Source: Terrimonas ferruginea DSM 30193
GTDB lineage: Bacteria; Bacteroidota; Bacteroidia; Chitinophagales; Chitinophagaceae
Direction: 5' to 3'
Length of the DNA: 64,000 bases
Assembly (NCBI RefSeq): GCF_000425585.1
Contig: NZ_KE384398.1
Location: forward strand, 462,416 to 526,415
Made by a program: the position numbers and the translations under genes. Below are positions 7,763-61,372 of the stretch, piece after piece. Under the pieces are notes generated by a model, which did not search any database, had not been told where the DNA came from, and saw only the letters and a list, made by a program, of their open reading frames with translations. Position 1 is the stretch's first letter. Each line of letters begins with the position of its first letter.

Positions 7763-7819
7763 ATTCACTTATTCACTATTCACCATTCACTATTCACTAT
7801 TCACCATTCACTATTCACC
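7763..7819. repeat. ATTCACN heptamer array
   Basis: One 8-base unit (7763-7770) is followed by seven unbroken 7-bp units ATTCACY from 7771 to 7819. The array ends 8 bases before the stop codon (7828) of the minus-strand nucleotidyltransferase gene. The same class occurs at 23042, 28871, 40266, 47586 and 53215. Confidence 0.8.
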
Positions 7820-51452: not shown

Positions 51453-52097
51453 ATGACCCGCAAAGAACGCTATGATTTTGTACTGGATTATTTCCAGGAA
51501 CATGCTCCCGATGCCGAAACAGAACTGGTTTACGACAATCCCTACCAATTGCTCGTGGCAGTCATCCTCTCAGCCCAGTGCACGGACAAACGGGTAAACA
51601 TGACCACGCCCGCTATTTTTCAGCAATACCCTGATATCGACGCACTCAGTCATGCCACGTTCGACGAGTTATTTCCCCTGATCCGCAGCATTTCATATCC
51701 CAACAACAAAACCAAACACCTTATCGGCATGGCCAATATGGTGAAGGATGACTTTGCAGGTGAAATCCCGATGACGGTGGAAGAGCTGATCAAACTACCG
51801 GGCGTGGGCCGTAAAACCGCCAACGTGATCACTTCGGTGATCGACCAGCAGCCCAATATGGCCGTAGACACCCACGTGTTCCGCGTAAGCAAACGCATTG
51901 GCCTGGTAACCCAGAAGGCCACCACCCCGCTGGCCGTTGAAAAAGAACTGATCCGGCATATTCCCAGCGAACTTATCCACAAAGCACATCATTGGCTGAT
52001 CCTTCATGGCCGCTATATCTGCGTGGCCCGCGCCCCTAAATGCCCCGAATGCGGCCTGCAACAGGCCTGCCTCTTTTTCCAGAAATCCTACAATTAA
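51453..52097 (+). CDS. nth: Endonuclease III
   Basis: A 214-residue base-excision repair glycosylase/lyase that removes oxidised pyrimidines. The helix-hairpin-helix LPGVGRKTANVI carries the catalytic Lys, and the Asp is in VDTHVFRV. The [4Fe-4S] cluster motif C-x6-C-x2-C-x5-C is intact (CVARAPKCPECGLQQAC). Length is normal. The start ATG lies directly after the inverted repeat arrays. Confidence 0.95.
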   Translation: MTRKERYDFVLDYFQEHAPDAETELVYDNPYQLLVAVILSAQCTDKRVNMTTPAIFQQYPDIDALSHATFDELFPLIRSISYPNNKTKHLIGMANMVKDDFAGEIPMTVEELIKLPGVGRKTANVITSVIDQQPNMAVDTHVFRVSKRIGLVTQKATTPLAVEKELIRHIPSELIHKAHHWLILHGRYICVARAPKCPECGLQQACLFFQKSYN

Positions 52098-52209
52098 TTT
52101 TCCGTAAAGCCGTTTGTTTATTACATTTAAAACTGATCTTCGCAACCTTCCAATCTCCCCTGAAAACCGCCCCGATCCGCACTCCTCCTTTATTGTAGAA
52201 GTCTAAACT

Positions 52210-53139
52210 ATGCTGATGTTGAAACGCGCTTTTTTACCCGTTATGATCTTCTGCGCCCTGTTGTCAACCAGGAGTGCACATGCCCAATACTATTTCCTGA
52301 ATGACCGCTACTACGGCCAGGACTTTACGTTCGAGCTTGGCGGCTCCGTAGGCGCCATGAATGCTTTTACCGACCTCGGTGGTAACAAAGGCATTGGTAA
52401 AAACTTCGTCAAAGATTTCAATCTCAAAAATACACGCCCGAGTTTTGGCCTCTATGCCCTGGCTACTTACAGGGAAGCCATTGGCGTACGGCTCGAAGGC
52501 ACTTTCGGATCGGTGCAGGCCTATGACAGCATTCTGAAAAAAGATGGCAAAAGCACTTTTGGCCGATACGAACGCAATCTCAGTTTCAGAAGCCGCATCA
52601 CCGACGTGCAACTTTCATTCGAAATACATCCGTTATTCTTCAAAATGTATTCAGAAGACGAAGCACCTTTTTTCTCCCCTTATCTTGTTGCAGGCGTTGG
52701 TTATTTCGCTTTCAACCCGCAGGCCCAGCTCAACGGCAAATGGTATGACCTTCAGCCGTTGCGCACCGAGGGACAGGGCTTTGCGCAATACCCCGACCGC
52801 AAGCCTTATAAACTCAGCCAGATCAATATCCCGGTGGGCGTCGGTCTCCGTTATGAACTGACACCCTCTATTTATACACGCCTGGAAGTGGTACACCGCT
52901 TTCTTTTCACCGACTACCTGGATGACGTAAGCACTACGTATATTGACCCGAATGCTTTTTACCTGAACCTGCCTCCCAATCTTGCTTCCATCGCAGAGCA
53001 GATGCATAACCGCAATCTTCCCGGATCCGGCTACCAAACCGGCGGCCCCGGCGATCAGCGCGGAGATTCCAAAGACAAAGATTCTTATTTCACCATTCAG
53101 TTGAAGTTTGGTTTTGTATTGCGCAACGAACCGCGGTAA
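52210..53139 (+). CDS. DUF6089/PorG-like outer-membrane barrel protein
   Basis: A 309-residue protein with a signal peptide (about 1-25, ending SAHAQ). The opening FELGGSVGAMNAFTDLGGNKG resembles DUF6089 proteins, which include the type IX secretion protein PorG. The rest is beta-barrel-like with membrane strands up to KFGFVLRNEPR. The match is partial, so PorG function is only possible; the T9SS-sorted protease at 134-2668 shows the system should exist in this genome. Confidence 0.65.
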   Translation: MLMLKRAFLPVMIFCALLSTRSAHAQYYFLNDRYYGQDFTFELGGSVGAMNAFTDLGGNKGIGKNFVKDFNLKNTRPSFGLYALATYREAIGVRLEGTFGSVQAYDSILKKDGKSTFGRYERNLSFRSRITDVQLSFEIHPLFFKMYSEDEAPFFSPYLVAGVGYFAFNPQAQLNGKWYDLQPLRTEGQGFAQYPDRKPYKLSQINIPVGVGLRYELTPSIYTRLEVVHRFLFTDYLDDVSTTYIDPNAFYLNLPPNLASIAEQMHNRNLPGSGYQTGGPGDQRGDSKDKDSYFTIQLKFGFVLRNEPR

Positions 53140-53186
53140 GGTAGTAAGTAGGAAGTAAACAGCCGGTTATTGCCAGCGCCAACGAT

Positions 53187-53278
53187 CTTGGTTCGTGTAT
53201 ACACGAACCAAGGCATTCACGATTGACAATTCACGATTGACGATTGACGATTCACCCATTCACCATTCACCATTCACG
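53187..53278. repeat. Hairpin element and ATTSACN array
   Basis: A perfect 26-nt palindrome (half CTTGGTTCGTGTA, 53187-53212) is followed by eight 7-bp ATTSACN units from 53215 to 53278 with one extra C. The last unit ends one base before the stop codon of the minus-strand barrel gene (53279). Confidence 0.8.
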
Positions 53279-54529
53279 TCAATCGTACTTCCTCCCCCTG
53301 CTCTGCAAAAAATCCCTGTACGAAAAACTAAAATTGAGCTGAAAATAATTTTCCTTGATAAGGTTAGCCTGCTGCGTGCCGCGCACACCACCTTCCAGCG
53401 AAACGGAATACAACAAACCTTTGCTTAATATACCTCCCATACCCGCCGTAAAACCATACTCCCTGATCGGTTGATTGCGGATCTGCAGATAAGACTGATT
53501 ATAGAAACCTCCAAGTTGAAAGAAACGGTGCTCTATCTCCTGGTTCCATACATTTTTTTTCCGGGAAAATTCCACGCCGCCTGATAAGCGGCTGCTGCTG
53601 ACCATTTGCCATCCCTGTTTCTTTATCTGCAACGAAGACCAGTCATCATAGGTATAATCCACCAAGTAGGTCGTTTTGCGATTGTGCGTTAACGATATAC
53701 CGGCTGCATAACTTTTCGGCAAACGGAAATTTCCCTGCTCCAGCGTTTTTGCATCCACCAGTGTCGTTGTTCCCTCTGTTACTGTCAATGTCCGTTCCGA
53801 CGGCAAGTTCACTCCGGGAGTATAACGCCCGCCAAGATTGAGTGCCCATTTTTTTCCCAAAGCCGTATAGTATTGCGCACCGGCCTGGAAGCGCGGACGC
53901 CCGAAATATTCCTGCACTTGTGTGCTGACCGACGAGCCCAGCCCCGCATCACTCACGATCTCCGTTTTATTGAACCCGCCGGCTACAATAGCCGATCGTA
54001 AGCCAACCGAAAAATGTTTCCCCAACGACACTGCATTGGTCCAGTAATATTCATTCAGACCACCGTCACCTTCATAACGCGTCTGGTAAGTTGTGTTGTC
54101 GCCTATTATTCCTTTTTCTCCGGTAAATGTATAGTTCACATTACTGAATTGGCTGAAACCGGCACTCGTAGCCCAGAAACCATTTACTTTAACAGCCAGT
54201 GAAAGACGTTTGATCCAGAAATCTTTGTTCTTGCTGTTATCGATACTGACCGGCGTGCCGGAATAGGTAACCGTACGCGCGGCCATAGCCGCATCTATTG
54301 TATAAAAACTGCGTGTAAGTCCTGTTATGGCCGCGGGATTGTTATCAACGAGATAAATAGATGATCGCGTGGCAATTCCCGTACCTGCAAGACCCGCTGT
54401 ACGATTATAACTGCGATGATCGATATCACCGATGCCGTAGATGGAATAGGGACTGTTCATGTTCTGCGCACGCACAATTGCAGTAGCAAAAAAGAACAGG
54501 CATAGTAATAGCGTAACACGTTGCTGCAT
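53279..54529 (-). CDS. Outer-membrane beta-barrel protein (OmpP1/FadL-like)
   Basis: A 416-residue protein with a signal peptide (about 1-21, ending VRAQ) and a beta-barrel pattern over its whole length. The N-terminal NSPYSIYGIGDI and GLAGTGIATR near residues 45-52 resemble the OmpP1/FadL-type barrels of Bacteroidota that carry hydrophobic substrates. It is second in a two-gene operon after the DUF4270 lipoprotein (17-base spacing). Confidence 0.7.
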   Translation of the reverse strand: MQQRVTLLLCLFFFATAIVRAQNMNSPYSIYGIGDIDHRSYNRTAGLAGTGIATRSSIYLVDNNPAAITGLTRSFYTIDAAMAARTVTYSGTPVSIDNSKNKDFWIKRLSLAVKVNGFWATSAGFSQFSNVNYTFTGEKGIIGDNTTYQTRYEGDGGLNEYYWTNAVSLGKHFSVGLRSAIVAGGFNKTEIVSDAGLGSSVSTQVQEYFGRPRFQAGAQYYTALGKKWALNLGGRYTPGVNLPSERTLTVTEGTTTLVDAKTLEQGNFRLPKSYAAGISLTHNRKTTYLVDYTYDDWSSLQIKKQGWQMVSSSRLSGGVEFSRKKNVWNQEIEHRFFQLGGFYNQSYLQIRNQPIREYGFTAGMGGILSKGLLYSVSLEGGVRGTQQANLIKENYFQLNFSFSYRDFLQSRGRKYD

Positions 54530-54546
54530 AAAGAGAGATTTACAGA

Positions 54547-55896
54547 TCAGTTAGTGGATGTATTGACAGTGATCAGCGTGAGGCGCAACCGGCATCGCTG
54601 TGCGTCCGGCAGTGAACCGCCGGCCCCCACGATCAACCGCGAGATATTCAGCGGTGCCGATGCATTGTGCATCAACATGAAACCATTATCCTGGCTTCCC
54701 CCCGAGCTAAGCAACGCACTGATATAAGCCGTTACGTTAAACCGGTAGTAATTATTTTCCCCGTATACAAGGTCGAGCATGGGATCGGCATAAAGGATGT
54801 CCGAACCAATAGAATCCAGTACCGAACCCGACGATAAATTGGAAGCATCGGTTTGCGTCATGTACAATTGATTGGGCAGGGATGATATACCCTGCACAAA
54901 TGATTGCGGATAAGGGCGGACAATCAATTCTGCTTTTGCCAGCCTTACATAACTCTTTCCGGCAAGCAGGTTTTTCAAATAAGGAAATGTCATTTTTATA
55001 GTTAACCCGGTACCCGCCTGCTCAAATACGCGCCCGCCGGTAAGCGACGCCGCAATCTCCGTTAAATTATTTCCCGTACTCAGCAATCCCGTACCCGAAC
55101 GGTCCGCTATGAGCTGATTGAAAGTATACGTGTTGTTGAGCACGCCAAAGTCTACATAAGCGGGCGATGGATACGGCACCGTGGTATGATAATGCACGCG
55201 CAGGCTGAGGGTGCTTTGTACTGCATTCAATCCAACTACAAAAGATTCGTCAGCCGCACTTACATCCAATGCAAGACCGTACAGATAACCCAGGAAGTTT
55301 TCCTGCGAGCTCAACTCCGTGGCATGATCGCGCAGTTTGGTAAAGAGTTCCTGCCCCTTTGCATCCTGTAAACGCACGACCACCGAATCCATCTGCACCG
55401 GATTGATGCGGACCGTACTGCTACCCAGCGAAACGGCTTTCACCGGCACGTCACTCGTATTGTATAGTTTATTGTTATAGCTCAATGTCATCGGCCGCGA
55501 CAACTCATCAGCACGAATAGTGATGGAGCGCGTTGAATCTCCATAGTAATAATCATTGGGACGCAACACCAGGGTGAGTGAATCAAAGATGGCCGAAGAA
55601 GGAATCTCCGGCAGAGAAGCGGGAACGGCCAATTGAAAAAATGGCCTTGCCTTAATCAGACCAAGATAGGCATCGCGGTAACGACCCAGCAGGAAGTAAC
55701 TGGTGCCACTTGTTGAAAACGAATCGGTCATCACCGTCGACAACTGTACCGTTGTGCTATCGATATATTCAATGGAAGTATAAGGGTTATCCGGTGTGGT
55801 ACCGAACTCTATATCCTTGCGGGTGCAGGAGAGCAGCCAGAGGGAAAGACCGAGTATCATGCAGGGAATAAAAGCTTGCAGACGCATGGGAACCAT
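54547..55896 (-). CDS. DUF4270 family lipoprotein
   Basis: A 449-residue lipoprotein (lipobox LLSC, Cys24) of the DUF4270 family. The sequence after the lipid anchor (RKDIEFGTTPDN, STVQLSTVMTDSFST) and the beta-rich repeats match that family, whose function is unknown but which is widespread in Bacteroidota. It is the first gene of the minus-strand arm of a divergent envelope cluster. A start at 55887 (second Met) is also possible. Confidence 0.82.
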   Translation of the reverse strand: MVPMRLQAFIPCMILGLSLWLLSCTRKDIEFGTTPDNPYTSIEYIDSTTVQLSTVMTDSFSTSGTSYFLLGRYRDAYLGLIKARPFFQLAVPASLPEIPSSAIFDSLTLVLRPNDYYYGDSTRSITIRADELSRPMTLSYNNKLYNTSDVPVKAVSLGSSTVRINPVQMDSVVVRLQDAKGQELFTKLRDHATELSSQENFLGYLYGLALDVSAADESFVVGLNAVQSTLSLRVHYHTTVPYPSPAYVDFGVLNNTYTFNQLIADRSGTGLLSTGNNLTEIAASLTGGRVFEQAGTGLTIKMTFPYLKNLLAGKSYVRLAKAELIVRPYPQSFVQGISSLPNQLYMTQTDASNLSSGSVLDSIGSDILYADPMLDLVYGENNYYRFNVTAYISALLSSGGSQDNGFMLMHNASAPLNISRLIVGAGGSLPDAQRCRLRLTLITVNTSTN

Positions 55897-56228
55897 AGTT
55901 TATCGTTTGTTAAAATGCCCGCGCAATATATCCCGCCCGCCTGCCGGTAATTTGTTATACTCTATTAATGCCACGGATAAATCGGCGAAAGACGCTTCAC
56001 CACCGATAAGCGCCTGCAACCTTTTTGAAAGCGCTTTTTTTCAGCATTGTCCTGCTGATAGAGTCTTCCGTCAGTTCTATCTATTCATTAAGGCAATTCA
56101 TCTATTTTAAGAGAATCTTCCGCCTCACCGCCAATACTTTTATCCGCTTGAAGTCCGTGATGCCTGCCGGCTCCGGCTATTAATTATCCACGAAAGGACG
56201 GTCGGCCCGCTCCTTACAAAACCAGAGA
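55897..56228. other. Divergent spacer, 332 bp
   Basis: This separates the DUF4270 and Kelch genes. TACTTTTA (56135-56142) is a 7/8 -7 box for the plus arm. No convincing minus-strand box and no repeat array are found, which is unusual for this window. No ORF or RNA was recognised. Confidence 0.5.
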
Positions 56229-57275
56229 ATGATGAAAAAAGTACACGCTTATCTTATCGGTTCTTTACTGATCACCGGTTCGGTAGTATTGTCGCAGGGT
56301 TGTACGCGCGACACCAGTTCGGACGATGACCTGATTGGCAACTGGAAAAAAGGAGATGACTTTGAAAGAGATGCCCGCAGTGAAGCCATTTCTTTTACCA
56401 TCGGCGATTACGCTTATGCAGGTACAGGCGCAGGCTCCAGCAACTCCGAACGTTTCAAAGACATCATGGAGTACAACCTGGCCAGACGTTATTGGACACA
56501 GAAAGCCGATCTTCCCGGTGCGGCAAGAAGTTCTGCCGTGGCTTTCTCCATCGGCAACAAAGGCTATGTAGGTACAGGCTACAGCGGATCTGCACGTCTC
56601 ACTGATTTCTGGGAATACGACCAGGCGGCCAATCAATGGACACAGAAAACTGCTTTTGCCGGCACCGCACGGTATGATGCAGTGGCATTTGTATTGAATG
56701 GAAAAGCCTACGTTGGCTGCGGTAACGACGGTAATTATCTCAAGGACCTGTGGCAGTTCGATCCCTCCGGCAACGGCGGCCAGGGTTCGTGGGAACAGAA
56801 AGCAAGTGTGGGCGGTTCCAAACGCTCGGCAGCCATGGCTTTCGTTGTCAACAATACGGCTTATATCTGCGGAGGCAACAACAACGGCGAAACGCAGACC
56901 GACCTCTGGGCCTACAACGAAACAGAAAACCAGTGGACCAAGAAAAATGATATCTACAACGCTACCGACGACTCCTTCGATGACGATTACGGCACCATCG
57001 CCCGTCAGAATGGTGTTACATTCGTGATCGATAACTTTGTGTACCTGGCAACGGGTGAAAGCGGCACAGGCGCTATCAATTCCACCACCTGGCGCTACGA
57101 TCCTTCGAGTGACCGCTGGGCGGAGAAAACCGCATTTGAAGGCACCGGCCGCACAGGCGCCATTGCCTTCACCCTGCAGAACCGCGGCTTTGTGGGCACG
57201 GGCCGCAGCGGCAGCCTGCTGATGGATAATATTTTTGAATTCCTGCCCAACGATGAACAGGTAGACAATGACTAA
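56229..57275 (+). CDS. Kelch-repeat propeller lipoprotein
   Basis: A 348-residue lipoprotein (lipobox LSQGC, Cys25). From about 50 to 340 there are six Kelch-like repeats with the pattern R-x4-FxIgxxxYxGtG ... DxWxYDxxxxxWxxK; examples are AVAFSIGNKGYVGTGYSG and AVAFVLNGKAYVGCGNDG. They should fold as a six-bladed propeller that may bind glycan or protein at the cell surface. It overlaps the DUF4907 gene by 8 bases and heads a four-gene operon with a sensor kinase and regulator. Confidence 0.85.
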   Translation: MMKKVHAYLIGSLLITGSVVLSQGCTRDTSSDDDLIGNWKKGDDFERDARSEAISFTIGDYAYAGTGAGSSNSERFKDIMEYNLARRYWTQKADLPGAARSSAVAFSIGNKGYVGTGYSGSARLTDFWEYDQAANQWTQKTAFAGTARYDAVAFVLNGKAYVGCGNDGNYLKDLWQFDPSGNGGQGSWEQKASVGGSKRSAAMAFVVNNTAYICGGNNNGETQTDLWAYNETENQWTKKNDIYNATDDSFDDDYGTIARQNGVTFVIDNFVYLATGESGTGAINSTTWRYDPSSDRWAEKTAFEGTGRTGAIAFTLQNRGFVGTGRSGSLLMDNIFEFLPNDEQVDND

Positions 57276-57600
57276 GCCCGGCGTAAAAACGATACTGCTG
57301 ATCAGTGTGCTGATTGCGGGATGCATGTGGTGGTTATTGCCGCGCAAAAAAGTGCAACCAGTATTTACTTCCTCGGTGTTTGCAACGGATAAGGGCTGGG
57401 GTTATGATATACGGATAAATGACAGTCTGCTGATCCACCAGGATGTGATTCCCGCACTGCCTGTGAACGCCGGCTTTGCCAATAAAGAACAGGCGGAAGC
57501 GGCCGCCTCACGCGTAGTAAGCAAACTCCGCAAAAAAGAATACCCGACTTTATCGGCGGATGAAGTAAGACAACTAATAACAGCATCCCGACATGAATGA
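57268..57600 (+). CDS. DUF4907 family lipoprotein
   Basis: A 110-residue small lipoprotein or anchored protein (Cys19 in LIAGC). The DUF4907 core is visible: GWGYDIRINDSLLIHQDVIPALPVNAGF. Function unknown. It overlaps the Kelch gene at its start and the histidine kinase gene at its end (8 bases each), so expression is translationally coupled. Confidence 0.8.
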   Translation: MTKPGVKTILLISVLIAGCMWWLLPRKKVQPVFTSSVFATDKGWGYDIRINDSLLIHQDVIPALPVNAGFANKEQAEAAASRVVSKLRKKEYPTLSADEVRQLITASRHE

Positions 57601-58810
57601 GCAACTTCCCATCAACCGCTTTTTGCTCGTGCTCTTTGGCTTCCAGAGAGCGCGCAGCATCGGGCAATTGGTTTTCATCTTACTCGTGCATGCGGTTGCC
57701 TGGGCGTTGTTTCTCTGGCTGCCATTGCTATTTTATCCTGTGCGCTTCGACGGAGAACCGGTATGGCGAAGGGAACTCATTACCAAGATTCTTCCGATCG
57801 CTTTCTTTTACCTGAACTATTATTATTTCCTTCCGCGCTTTTTTGAAAGAAGAAAGATTACGGTCTATCTGTTATTGGTACTGCTGTCGGTAATAATAAT
57901 CAGTGTGGCTGATATGTTCATCCGTTCGAAGCTCAGTGGTCTTTATCCGGTAAGCGGTACCAGAATGCTGTCGATAAAATCAAAGCCGTTACAGGAGCCG
58001 GCACCTGTGTTCCGCATCAGGATCGACCGGGGGGATAGCCTGTTCACCAGCGTCACGCCTGCGCGGCCATTCGATGAACACATGGTGTTGGGCATTCCAC
58101 AATCCTTTGTTTTCTTTTCGGTAAGCCGGACTGCTTCTACCTGCATCTTTCTTTTGTTATTGGGTGGAATGATACGCCTCGCTTATTCATTCCTCAGAAA
58201 TCAAAATGAAAAAAAGAGCCTGGAGAACGCACACCTGAATGCAGAAGTAAACTTCCTGAAATCGCAGATCAATCCGCATTTTCTTTTTAATACGCTGAAC
58301 AGCATTTATTCGCAGGCACATGCCCGTTCGGAAGACACCGAATCATCGATCCTTAAACTGTCGGAACTGCTGCGCTATGCCTTGTATGATTCGGCAGAAG
58401 ACCAGGTTGACCTTGACCGCGATATACGCTACATCAACAACTACATTGAGTTGCAGCGTTTACGGTTGTCGAGCAAGATACAGCTTGACTACTCGGTGAC
58501 CGGCGATATGACCGGTAAAAAGATCGCGCCTATGTTGCTGATTAGTTTTATCGAGAACGCTTTCAAACACGGCATCAGCTATACCCATGCATCCGCCATC
58601 GATATACAAATACACATTTTTGAAGAAACATTAACGCTTACCGTTGTGAACCCGGTGATCGAAAAAGATAGTTTTGCTCCCGGCGGGCTCGGCCTCCGGA
58701 ATGTGAAACGCAGGCTGGAACTGGTTTATCCCGAACGATATGAATTGATGACAGAGCGTGAGAACGACCAGCATATTGTTCACCTAAAACTGAAACTATA
58801 CCATGCTTAA
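57593..58810 (+). CDS. LytS-type sensor histidine kinase
   Basis: A 405-residue membrane kinase with about four hydrophobic segments in the first 195 residues and a periplasmic stretch between them (about 120-160). The His_kinase domain holds the phospho-acceptor His in INPHFLFNTLNS (near 227). The ATP-binding domain includes ENAFKHG and GLGLRNVKRRLELVYP. It pairs with the LytTR regulator encoded next, overlapping by 8 bases. The preceding genes suggest it senses the state of the Kelch/DUF4907 surface proteins (inference). Confidence 0.9.
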   Translation: MNEQLPINRFLLVLFGFQRARSIGQLVFILLVHAVAWALFLWLPLLFYPVRFDGEPVWRRELITKILPIAFFYLNYYYFLPRFFERRKITVYLLLVLLSVIIISVADMFIRSKLSGLYPVSGTRMLSIKSKPLQEPAPVFRIRIDRGDSLFTSVTPARPFDEHMVLGIPQSFVFFSVSRTASTCIFLLLLGGMIRLAYSFLRNQNEKKSLENAHLNAEVNFLKSQINPHFLFNTLNSIYSQAHARSEDTESSILKLSELLRYALYDSAEDQVDLDRDIRYINNYIELQRLRLSSKIQLDYSVTGDMTGKKIAPMLLISFIENAFKHGISYTHASAIDIQIHIFEETLTLTVVNPVIEKDSFAPGGLGLRNVKRRLELVYPERYELMTERENDQHIVHLKLKLYHA

Positions 58811-59507
58811 CTGTGTGATCATCGATGATGAGCCGCTTGCCCTTCAACTGATGGAGGACTACGTGCAGAAAACACCTTACCTGCGTCTGGCAGGCAAATT
58901 TGAAGAGCCGTTGCAGGCGCTCAACCTGCTTGAATCAGCTCAGATCGATCTTCTTTTTCTCGATATAAAAATGCCGGACATTACCGGCATTGACTTTTAT
59001 CGTTCACTTTCGCACAAACCGGAAGTGATCTTCACCACCGCCTACAGCGAATATGCCATCAACGGATTTGAGCTGAAAGCACTCGACTATCTGCTGAAAC
59101 CTATTTCATTTGAAAAATTTATCACAGCCTGTAACCGTGTACGCGACCTGATGGAGAATAAGAACCGTCCCGTAATGGCAGAAAAGGATTTCTTCTTTAT
59201 CAATGTAGCACACAAGATGCATAAGATATTCTTCGACGACATTCTTTATCTCGAAGGATACAAAGACTATACGAAAGTGCATTTGACGAGTGCGTCCAAC
59301 CCATTGCTGATCCTGCACAACCTGAAATACTTTGAGGATATGCTGGACAAACATGCTTTCGTCCGCATTCATCGTTCCTATATCGTATCGATGAGAAAAG
59401 TAACGGTTGCTTCGCGCAAAGCGGTGACCATACAGCAGCAGGAATTACCTGTCAGCGATAACTATCGTGATACATTTTTTGCACTGATCGAACAGCACGC
59501 GCGATAA
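58803..59507 (+). CDS. LytTR-family response regulator
   Basis: A 234-residue regulator. The receiver domain (about 1-120) has the acidic pair DD (8-9) and phospho-acceptor Asp54 in LDIKMPD; a LytTR DNA-binding domain follows (about 135-234). LytTR proteins bind direct repeats upstream of target promoters. It is encoded by the last gene of the operon and likely controls the cluster or envelope genes. Confidence 0.92.
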   Translation: MLNCVIIDDEPLALQLMEDYVQKTPYLRLAGKFEEPLQALNLLESAQIDLLFLDIKMPDITGIDFYRSLSHKPEVIFTTAYSEYAINGFELKALDYLLKPISFEKFITACNRVRDLMENKNRPVMAEKDFFFINVAHKMHKIFFDDILYLEGYKDYTKVHLTSASNPLLILHNLKYFEDMLDKHAFVRIHRSYIVSMRKVTVASRKAVTIQQQELPVSDNYRDTFFALIEQHAR

Positions 59508-59527
59508 CCTCTACAAACTCCGGCTGA

Positions 59528-61372
59528 TCAGCAATATTTCCTGATCTCTTCCACCAGTTCCGTCTTGGTCATCGGCAGTCCCATGATTTTGTTGTAAGAC
59601 TTCGCGTCGACCAGGTATACATCGCGCAGTATCTTGATGAGCTGACCGTTGTTAAGTTCGGGAACAAGGATCGTTTCAAACTGTGACAAAATCTGTCCGA
59701 GGTTACGGGGGAAAGGACGCAGGTAACGCAGGTGTGCGTGACTAACGGAAAGGCCGTCTTCCTGCAATTCGTTCACGGCTGATTTGATGGCACCGTACGT
59801 AGATCCCCAACCGAGCACCAATACTTTACCTTTTTCTTCTCCGCTGTCCAGTTTCTGTTCGGGGATATGGTCGGCGATCTTGTTTATTTTTTCTTCGCGG
59901 ATCTTCACCATCAACTGATGGTTCTCCGGATCGTAGCTCACGTTGCCGGTGATATTCTGTTTTTCGATGCCACCGATGCGGTGTTCGAGTCCGGGTGTGC
60001 CGGGCACAGCCCATGGACGCACCAGTTTTTCGTCGCGCAGGTATGGCTGGAATTTCTCTTCACCGTGTCCGAGATCTGTTTTGAATTTCACATGAATCGG
60101 GGAAAGATCTGCCGACTGCGGAAACTTCCAGGGCTCTGCACCATTGGCAATGTAGCCATCACTCAGGAAAATCACGGGTGTCATGTGTTGTACGGAAATG
60201 CGTACGGCTTCGTATACAGCTTCGAAACAATCGGCCGGAGTAGACGCGGACAGTACAGGCATGGGGCATTCACCGTTGCGGCCGTAATAAGCCTGCAGCA
60301 GATCCGACTGTTCTGTTTTGGTAGGCAACCCGGTGGAAGGGCCGCCCCGTTGTACGTCAATGATCAGCAACGGAATTTCCAGCATCACGGCAAGGCCCAT
60401 TGCTTCTGCTTTCAAAGCCATACCGGGACCGGAGGTGGTCGTAACGCCCAAAGAGCCGCCATATGACGCGCCGATAGCGGAAGAGATCGCGGCGATCTCA
60501 TCTTCAGCCTGGAAAGTACGGACGCCGAAATTTTTATGACGGCTCAGTTCGTGCAGGATATCCGATGCCGGTGTGATCGGATAAGTGCCGAGGAACATAG
60601 GCAGCCCGCTTTTCTGCGAAGCAGCAATTAGGCCGTAGGCCAATGCCTGGTTGCCCATGATGGAGCGGTAAGAGCCGGCTTCGATGCGGGCTTTTTCTAC
60701 TTTATAGGTAGTGGTAAAAGTTTCGGTGGTATCGCCATAGTTGTAACCTGCGTGCAGTGCTTTCAGGTTGCTGGCGAGAATATCTTCTTTGCGGCCGAAT
60801 TTTTCGGTAAGGAAAGCTTCCGTGTTCTTCATATCGCGCCCGTACATAAAATAAAGGAAGCCGAGGACGAACATGTTTTTGGCGCGGTCTTTCTCCTTCA
60901 TGCCCAATGTGAATTCCTTCAGCGCTTCACGGGTCATTTTGGTGACATCCATTTTGATGACGTCGTAGCTGTCGAGGCTGCCGTTTTCAAGAGGGTTATC
61001 GCCTTCGGCGTAATTAGCCAGCCGGAGGTTTTTGCTATCGAAACCATCGGTGTTGATGATCACTTTGCCACCTTTCTTCAATACGCCGAGGTTGACCTTG
61101 AGGGCGGCGGCATTCATGGCTACGAGTACGTCGCATTCGTCACCGGGTGTGTGAATGCTGTTGCTGCTGAAGCGCAACTGGAATCCGCTCACGCCGGGAA
61201 GTGTTCCCTGCGGGGCGCGGATCTCGGCCGGGAAGTCCGGGAAAGTGCTGAGGTCGGCACCCAGCAATGCTGTGTTGTTGGTAAACTGTGTACCGGTCAG
61301 TTGCATACCATCGCCGCTGTCTCCGGCAAACTTTATCACTACGTCCTGAAGGACTTCCTCTTTACGAATCAT
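59528..61372 (-). CDS. korA: 2-oxoacid:ferredoxin oxidoreductase alpha subunit (KorA-like)
   Basis: A 614-residue protein in which the gamma domain (about 1-190) is fused to the alpha domains. Motifs include GDSGDGMQLTG near the N-terminus and AEDEIAAISSAIGASYGG. With the beta subunit it would oxidise 2-oxoglutarate (or another 2-oxoacid) to the acyl-CoA and reduce ferredoxin. No beta-subunit gene lies beside it: the downstream neighbour is convergent. TACCTTTG, 17 bases before the ATG, is its promoter box. Confidence 0.85.
   Translation of the reverse strand: MIRKEEVLQDVVIKFAGDSGDGMQLTGTQFTNNTALLGADLSTFPDFPAEIRAPQGTLPGVSGFQLRFSSNSIHTPGDECDVLVAMNAAALKVNLGVLKKGGKVIINTDGFDSKNLRLANYAEGDNPLENGSLDSYDVIKMDVTKMTREALKEFTLGMKEKDRAKNMFVLGFLYFMYGRDMKNTEAFLTEKFGRKEDILASNLKALHAGYNYGDTTETFTTTYKVEKARIEAGSYRSIMGNQALAYGLIAASQKSGLPMFLGTYPITPASDILHELSRHKNFGVRTFQAEDEIAAISSAIGASYGGSLGVTTTSGPGMALKAEAMGLAVMLEIPLLIIDVQRGGPSTGLPTKTEQSDLLQAYYGRNGECPMPVLSASTPADCFEAVYEAVRISVQHMTPVIFLSDGYIANGAEPWKFPQSADLSPIHVKFKTDLGHGEEKFQPYLRDEKLVRPWAVPGTPGLEHRIGGIEKQNITGNVSYDPENHQLMVKIREEKINKIADHIPEQKLDSGEEKGKVLVLGWGSTYGAIKSAVNELQEDGLSVSHAHLRYLRPFPRNLGQILSQFETILVPELNNGQLIKILRDVYLVDAKSYNKIMGLPMTKTELVEEIRKYC

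Follow-up and report, generated by a model that had tools for sequence, protein, structure and literature searches.

Probable role of a second BamG/BamH pair, linked to a Kelch lipoprotein and DUF4907, as an alternative canopy of the Bacteroidota BAM complex

The beta-barrel assembly machinery (BAM) of Bacteroidota, including its canopy subunits BamG and BamH, was described in October 2025 (PMC12611786, PMC12578637; what is reported here of these two papers follows their openly accessible text). BamG is a FadL-like barrel which sits on BamA and whose own N-terminal tail threads its lateral opening, BamH is a surface lipoprotein docked on BamG, and BamI is a surface propeller which touches BamH and carries an N-terminal immunoglobulin-like (Ig-like) domain; canonical members of the FadL family transport hydrophobic molecules. 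Attempts to delete BamG failed in both published species, BamG and BamH are reported to be universal in Bacteroidota, and the main bam genes of the published species have distant locus numbers. Each model species also has a second pair, BamG2/BamH2, which either showed no expression in rich medium or escaped detection, and which received a name but no role, no condition of expression and no partners (PMC12611786, PMC12578637). Here we describe a six-gene cluster of Terrimonas ferruginea DSM 30193 in which such a pair is linked to a Kelch lipoprotein, a DUF4907 protein and a LytS/LytTR two-component system. It lies in a stretch of 64,000 nt (GCF_000425585.1, NZ_KE384398.1:462,416-526,415, forward strand), the whole of which is called the window below. 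The cluster probably encodes an alternative BAM canopy that includes a Kelch propeller and a DUF4907 protein of its own and that, in the lineage of the window, is under regulation.

The six genes were found exactly where a first-pass annotation, made from the letters of the window, had placed them (open reading frame coordinates checked), and they form two arms with one divergent spacer in common:

53279-54529, minus strand: BamG2, FadL-like barrel of the BamG family with the N-terminal tail motif MNSPYSIYGIGD (NCBIfam NF053685)
54547-55896, minus strand: BamH2, DUF4270 lipoprotein, a short BamH paralogue (Pfam DUF4270, 8.5e-29)
55897-56228, unstranded: divergent spacer between the two arms, 332 bp
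56080-56105, plus strand: TCTAT-N16-TCTAT direct repeat in a 21-bp register, a weak LytTR operator candidate (pattern search)
56135-56142, plus strand: TACTTTTA, a possible promoter element of the Kelch arm, one mismatch from TAnnTTTG
56229-57275, plus strand: Kelch lipoprotein, probably surface-exposed, six repeats by eye (Pfam Kelch_4, 6.9e-21)
57268-57600, plus strand: DUF4907 protein, an N-terminal hydrophobic helix and a small beta-sheet/two-helix domain (Pfam, 5.5e-19)
57593-58810, plus strand: LytS-type membrane histidine kinase with PHFLFN, ENAFKH and GLGLRN motifs (Pfam PF06580, 5.3e-25)
58803-59507, plus strand: LytTR response regulator (Pfam Response_reg 2.2e-20, LytTR 3.7e-17)

The 8-base overlaps noted earlier are present at each of the three junctions of the plus arm (Kelch/DUF4907/kinase/regulator); the minus arm has none, the DUF4270 gene being followed by the barrel gene 17 bases on. 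An Rfam scan of window positions 52000-60000 gave no match. The same arrangement was seen again in genomes of several families, far above chance neighbourhood, and the linked unit is referred to below as the module.

The barrel, rightly placed at the locus by the first-pass annotation but left anonymous, is a BamG: it scored 308.5 bits (E 7.1e-92) against the NCBIfam equivalog NF053685, above the curated cut-off of 250, and in phmmer searches it matched the BamG chains of the PDB (9hiv_F 9.4e-32, 9hjm_F 1.3e-20, 9n2d_B 1.2e-17), while Pfam gave no match at E <= 0.1. Its extended, conserved N-terminal tail, NSPYSIYGIGD, aligns with those of 9hiv_F and 9hjm_F; the motif SP[YF][ST]xxGxG was found in 42 of the 46 BamG compared, the window included, and is altered in those of G007, G238, L006 and G041. 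The window barrel is predicted to bind BamA.

The lipoprotein encoded beside it belongs to DUF4270 (101.4 bits, Pfam cut-off 27), and a profile built from 13 module relatives matched BamH in the PDB (9hjm_G, 8.3e-20; 9n2d_C, 'Bam H', 4.7e-9); the single window sequence found no BamH there. Since it falls below the cut-off of the NCBIfam equivalog BamH_fj (22.9 bits vs 420), it was filed as a BamH2-type paralogue rather than as BamH_fj. With DUF4270 recognized as BamH and the barrel as BamG, the earlier statement that none of DUF4270, DUF4907 and this Kelch protein has a known role is out of date. A second DUF4270 gene (29.1% identical to the window BamH) lies on contig C5 and a second BamG gene (26.5% identical to the window BamG) on contig C17, which brings the genome to two DUF4270, two BamG and one DUF4907. 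The two copies elsewhere are thus on separate contigs, whereas those of the window adjoin, and because the genome holds this unlinked BamG and BamH as well, the window pair is designated BamG2/BamH2.

The linkage was followed in a phylum sample of 247 genomes, a class-wide sample of 396 and a family-wide sample of 294. DUF4907 occurs in 18 genomes of the phylum sample and DUF4270 in 82 (70 of them above cut-off), and 16 of the 18 DUF4907 genes have a DUF4270 gene no more than ~4 kb away, G041 and G122 being the exceptions. Fifteen of these genomes carry DUF4270 genes at two separate places (in G054 and G163 both matches belong to a single frame, and these two were left out of this count); the second copy adjoins a Kelch gene in all 15, and DUF4907 too in 14 of them (not in G107). 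Family-wide, DUF4270 was matched in 260 of the 294 genomes, with two copies in at least 57; G559 has one copy among the family-wide places listed and two in the two-model search described below. Linkage was seen under at least five family labels (f1, f5, f10, f11, f89), and it is kept through a rearrangement to a single direction (L071) and where only BamH stays (L112, L121). The module lies directly beside bamA-skp-skp-murI in eight loci of one genus (g15), and in a ninth (L062) bamA is just beyond the fetched end.

Class-wide, DUF4907 was found in 86 of the 396 genomes, giving one locus for each of 74 new genomes and 12 seen before, some on short contigs; the set does not include the additional DUF4907 places of G272 and G299. 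Kelch is present in 56 of the 86 loci and BamH in 17, and of the 30 loci in which Kelch was not found one has BamH; annotation was by profiles from the module proteins, which may miss divergent relatives below threshold. Three DUF4907 loci came from a search of a collection of genome contigs. Kelch-DUF4907 is thus the wider pair, and BamG2/BamH2 goes with it in some families only: seen from the second DUF4270 copies the two arms do not occur independently (15/15 beside Kelch), whereas seen from DUF4907 in the class they mostly do (BamH in only 17/86).

Several loci of these surveys have features of their own. The module is split in L112 and L121, where Kelch, DUF4907 and BamH run in one direction and the only BamG detected in the genome is elsewhere. 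Three to five Kelch genes in a row, accompanied by a single DUF4907 and by no detected BamGH, occur in L069, L081-L083, L086, L089, L090, L106, L116-L119, L127-L129 and L136, and in L143 (8797-11653) a BamH-like gene lies ~1 kb from DUF4907, neither Kelch nor BamG having been found in that locus. A DUF6268 gene (Pfam) stands between spacer and Kelch in L058 (7989-8828) and L075 (10672-11541), and phmmer relatives of it have the same position in seven more g15 loci. An intradiol dioxygenase-like lipoprotein, recognized by eye, is encoded between kinase and regulator in L058 (11291-11998), L064 (8090-8800) and L065 (11247-11957).

In a tree of 49 BamH the 25 module BamH fall on one side of a branch with support 100/98, and in a tree of 46 BamG the 23 module BamG do so with support 84/47. 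The rows carry the five family labels given above plus two named contigs (L006, L007), and because the module rows span these several labels the BamH split looks ancient; the split suggested for BamG is weak. Searching 26 genomes with the BamG and DUF4270 models gave at least one BamG and at least one BamH in each. Of the 20 module carriers among them 15 have both pairs; G535 and G460 each combine one BamG that is unlinked with one BamH of the module clade, the latter beside Kelch-DUF4907; and in three (G007, G528, G238; completeness 99-100%) the module BamG and BamH were the only ones found. G528 groups with the window in both trees, and its locus (L124) has the same gene order including kinase and regulator. 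Loss of both main genes to assembly gaps is unlikely, because the main genes lie apart in relatives. Since BamG was undeletable in both published species and BamG/BamH are reported to be universal (PMC12611786, PMC12578637), the module pair must suffice in these three genomes, and it can apparently serve as the sole canopy. No other observation speaks as strongly for an action of the module pair on BamA.

The first-pass annotation had counted three lipid-anchored proteins, which holds only in part. The lipid Cys of the window BamH2 is invariant in its alignment and is followed, in CTRKDIE, by two acidic residues within six positions; scored by a simple lipobox pattern, at least two such residues were present in 14 of 20 scorable BamH2 relatives (25 examined) and in 15 of 20 scorable Kelch relatives (25 examined). 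Cys25 of the Kelch protein is likewise invariant, across 16 sequences; the window protein has the Cys and no standard lipobox, and hence falls outside the scoring of acidic residues. DUF4907, conversely, has an N-terminal hydrophobic helix, with a lipobox in 11 of 24 module relatives, and only one of these 11 scorable proteins has two or more acidic residues after the Cys. These patterns suggest a Kelch protein at the cell surface and a DUF4907 protein which is probably periplasmic and membrane-anchored. The AlphaFold model of Kelch is a confident propeller (predicted local distance difference test, pLDDT, 88.4; predicted template modelling score, pTM, 0.85; residues 1-32 below pLDDT 50), and a Foldseek search with it gave 5yy8 as best match (5.5e-23), the 50 matches listed being Kelch domains. 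DUF4907 was modelled as a helix and a small domain (pLDDT 90.0); neither its fold (Foldseek against the PDB, E <= 0.001) nor its sequence (phmmer against the PDB, E <= 10) had a match.

The last two genes of the plus arm encode a PF06580 kinase, with hydrophobic segments visible in its sequence, and a receiver-LytTR regulator. A kinase and regulator follow DUF4907 or Kelch in the same direction in 14 of the 25 module loci; the pair is nearby in another arrangement in four (L067, L071, L076, L077), LytTR stands alone in one (L007), and neither gene is adjacent in six (L066, L068, L098, L112, L121, L006). The best match of the window kinase is the module kinase in all four genomes of the first order tested (G528, 1.5e-107; G134; G107; G206). 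The window regulator groups with that of the G528 module with a Shimodaira-Hasegawa-like approximate likelihood ratio (SH-aLRT) of 99, in a tree which is no test of orthology because its rows are regulators that merely fall in the fetched loci. The "dedicated" two-component system proposed earlier can therefore be retained for a subset of loci, in which the pair with the best match of the window kinase accompanies the unit, and not for the others.

Bacteroidota promoters have a -7 element with the consensus TAnnTTTG, and the repeats of LytTR operators are typically in a 21-22 bp register. In the window spacer TACTTTTA is identical in three of three near relatives aligned; an exact TAnnTTTG was not found in this spacer, though it was in others. 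TCTAYN16TCTAY has a single match in the 64 kb (0.18 expected; at least one match in 18 of 100 shuffles), and a looser operator pattern gave eight matches against 2.9 expected, several within simple repeats. CTAY boxes in a 21-bp register are present in all nine g15 spacers, in eight of them between two TAnnTTTG elements. Among the 13 spacers with kinase and regulator after Kelch/DUF4907, ten have CTAY pairs at 20-23 bp (shuffle mean 1.18; 0/1000 as high), namely the window and the nine from g15, and L056, L057 and L075 do not; for the window spacer by itself 99 of 1000 shuffles do equally well. The pair is also found in two of three spacers of other gene order (26/1000 shuffles as high) and is absent from the spacers of L076, L077, L006 and L007, while in L098 pairs occur only within a simple repeat. 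All these statistics are optimistic, because the pattern was picked after inspecting the spacers.

Taken together, these observations support the following picture. The N-terminal tail of BamG2 would thread its own barrel wall to reach BamA, BamH2 would dock on BamG2 as an arch-shaped surface lipoprotein, and the two would replace, or alternate with, the main BamG and BamH on a shared BamA core. Kelch may be the dedicated surface propeller of this canopy, placed like BamI in Bacteroides, with DUF4907 as a membrane-anchored, probably periplasmic accessory. In the lineage of the window the LytS/LytTR pair of the same operon is expected to switch the cluster, so that the alternative canopy would be made only under some envelope condition, the presumed inducing signal, and for a presumed set of clients. 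We offer more tentatively the wider suggestion of a switchable BAM, in which an ancient canopy under LytS/LytTR control serves different surface-complex clients and has displaced the standard canopy in some lineages.

Several results weigh against this interpretation. Homologues of the subunits could be deleted in F. johnsoniae, a B. thetaiotaomicron bamH bamH2 double mutant and the bamH single mutant had similar stress phenotypes, and in that species the authors argue against a BamG2H2 complex that would compensate (PMC12611786, PMC12578637). The first two of these findings count against a role that is constant, or that of a backup, under the conditions used and are compatible with a conditional role, and paralogues that are unexpressed or undetected are as expected of a conditional system. 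The DUF4270 model had no match in 165 of the 247 phylum and 34 of the 294 family genomes; as it misses divergent BamH, an "only module BamH" could be a failure of detection, and the BamG half of the argument from module-only genomes is firmer than the BamH half. Two of these three genomes (G007, G238), however, have a BamG with an altered tail motif. Kelch and DUF4907 often occur without BamGH, and there is no BAM entry among the best 60 of the 105 PDB matches of Kelch and no BAM propeller among its 50 listed fold matches. As for regulation, the kinase-regulator pair directly follows DUF4907/Kelch in only the 14 of 25 loci given above, the best match of the window kinase lies outside the module in six of six module genomes of other orders tested, the repeat pair is missing from L124/G528, the closest relative in which kinase and regulator are the same, and genome-wide TCTAYN16TCTAY is at chance (39 matches vs 39 in a reversed control). 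Because of the last two points the main grounds for regulation by LytS/LytTR, which we infer, are the structure of the operon and the kinase that travels with the unit.

One alternative, which we regard as possible but clearly less likely, accepts BamG2/BamH2 as a BAM canopy and takes Kelch for a surface client that needs it for export or assembly, so that a client is coupled to its assembler and Kelch and DUF4907 are not subunits. Since Kelch-DUF4907 loci are common without BamGH, this pair has a life of its own; in addition, the Kelch relatives bear surface-lipoprotein signals, and the dome of the main BAM is thought to help in the assembly of lipoprotein-barrel complexes (PMC12611786, PMC12578637). 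On the other hand, every second BamH of the phylum sample keeps Kelch, and Kelch persists, too, in genomes whose only detected BamGH is the module pair, which there has to handle many clients. It is improbable, by our estimate, that an external polymer, as first proposed, or a hydrophobic molecule is bound by the propeller and imported or sensed by the barrel. Propellers often bind ligands, and BamG belongs to the FadL family with its transporters of hydrophobic molecules; the window barrel, however, is above the BamG equivalog cut-off, keeps the tail motif and is paired with BamH, the tail of BamG threads the lateral opening (PMC12611786, PMC12578637), and no enzyme or transporter gene recurs in all 13 module loci listed, the remaining loci having been checked by profile only. 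We hold very unlikely a mere inertia of gene order, in which BamG2/BamH2 and the Kelch-DUF4907 arm are unrelated in function and kept together by a shared promoter region, for although nine of the 25 module loci come from one genus and the kinase pair is not universal, the linkage extends over at least five family labels and outlasts one rearrangement and two BamH-only cases.

An alternative BAM canopy is thus the reading we prefer, and the first-pass interpretation is partly supported: its regulated surface complex agrees with two arms that are one conserved unit whose products are, by sequence, mostly of the outer membrane or surface, while polymer binding or import, for which there was no specific support, is probably the wrong function for the cluster. 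If the preferred reading is true, the machinery of outer-membrane construction exists in exchangeable versions, with an outer cover that could be under regulation. The linkage points to Kelch and DUF4907 as candidate partners and to LytS/LytTR as a candidate switch, and it supplies natural test organisms in which no BamG/BamH other than this pair was found.

Downstream of BamG2, a convergently transcribed gene (52210-53139, plus strand) encodes a PorG-like outer-membrane protein, which scored 95.9 bits on NCBIfam T9SS_PorG (cut-off 130). Window positions 53215-53277 hold short direct repeats, ATTCACGATTGAC or ATTCACCATTCAC in type, which are also found near 7778, 23049, 40273 and 47627.

Compared with the described systems, the window pair resembles BamG2-BamH2 of F. 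johnsoniae and B. thetaiotaomicron (Bt1785-Bt1786) in being a second pair besides the main copies (PMC12611786, PMC12578637). BtBamH2 has a shorter chain than BamH, and its gene and that of BamG2 form a putative operon; the window BamH2 is likewise short and adjoins BamG2; F. johnsoniae BamH2 is without the hairpin that binds BamM. Very probably the window pair is of the same family as these, whose sequences are outside the trees given here. In the accessible text of both papers the published pairs are given no function and the words Kelch and two-component are absent; an iron-depletion lead for BT1785-86 (3.6-fold, P 0.437; PMC10434189, accessible part) was not used as support. The linkage to Kelch, DUF4907 and the two-component system, and the genomes in which this pair alone was found, come from the present analysis; a search of open-access text found no paper on this linkage, part of which may be shown in Extended Data Fig. 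3a (bam gene organisation) of the Nature paper. As in LytS/LytTR systems generally, a PF06580 kinase with a PHFLFN motif and a receiver-LytTR regulator share one operon; no such system of known function was identified as a match, the best regulator model in NCBIfam, BtsR, being far under its cut-off (117 bits vs 246). With the main Bacteroidota BAM (BamADGH, and BamI-K in Bacteroides and Porphyromonas) the module has the homology of BamG and BamH in common. Both also have a propeller lipoprotein near BamH, BamI there and Kelch here; BamI has an N-terminal Ig-like domain, whereas the Kelch model is a propeller only, and the likeness is one of position and fold type which does not imply descent.

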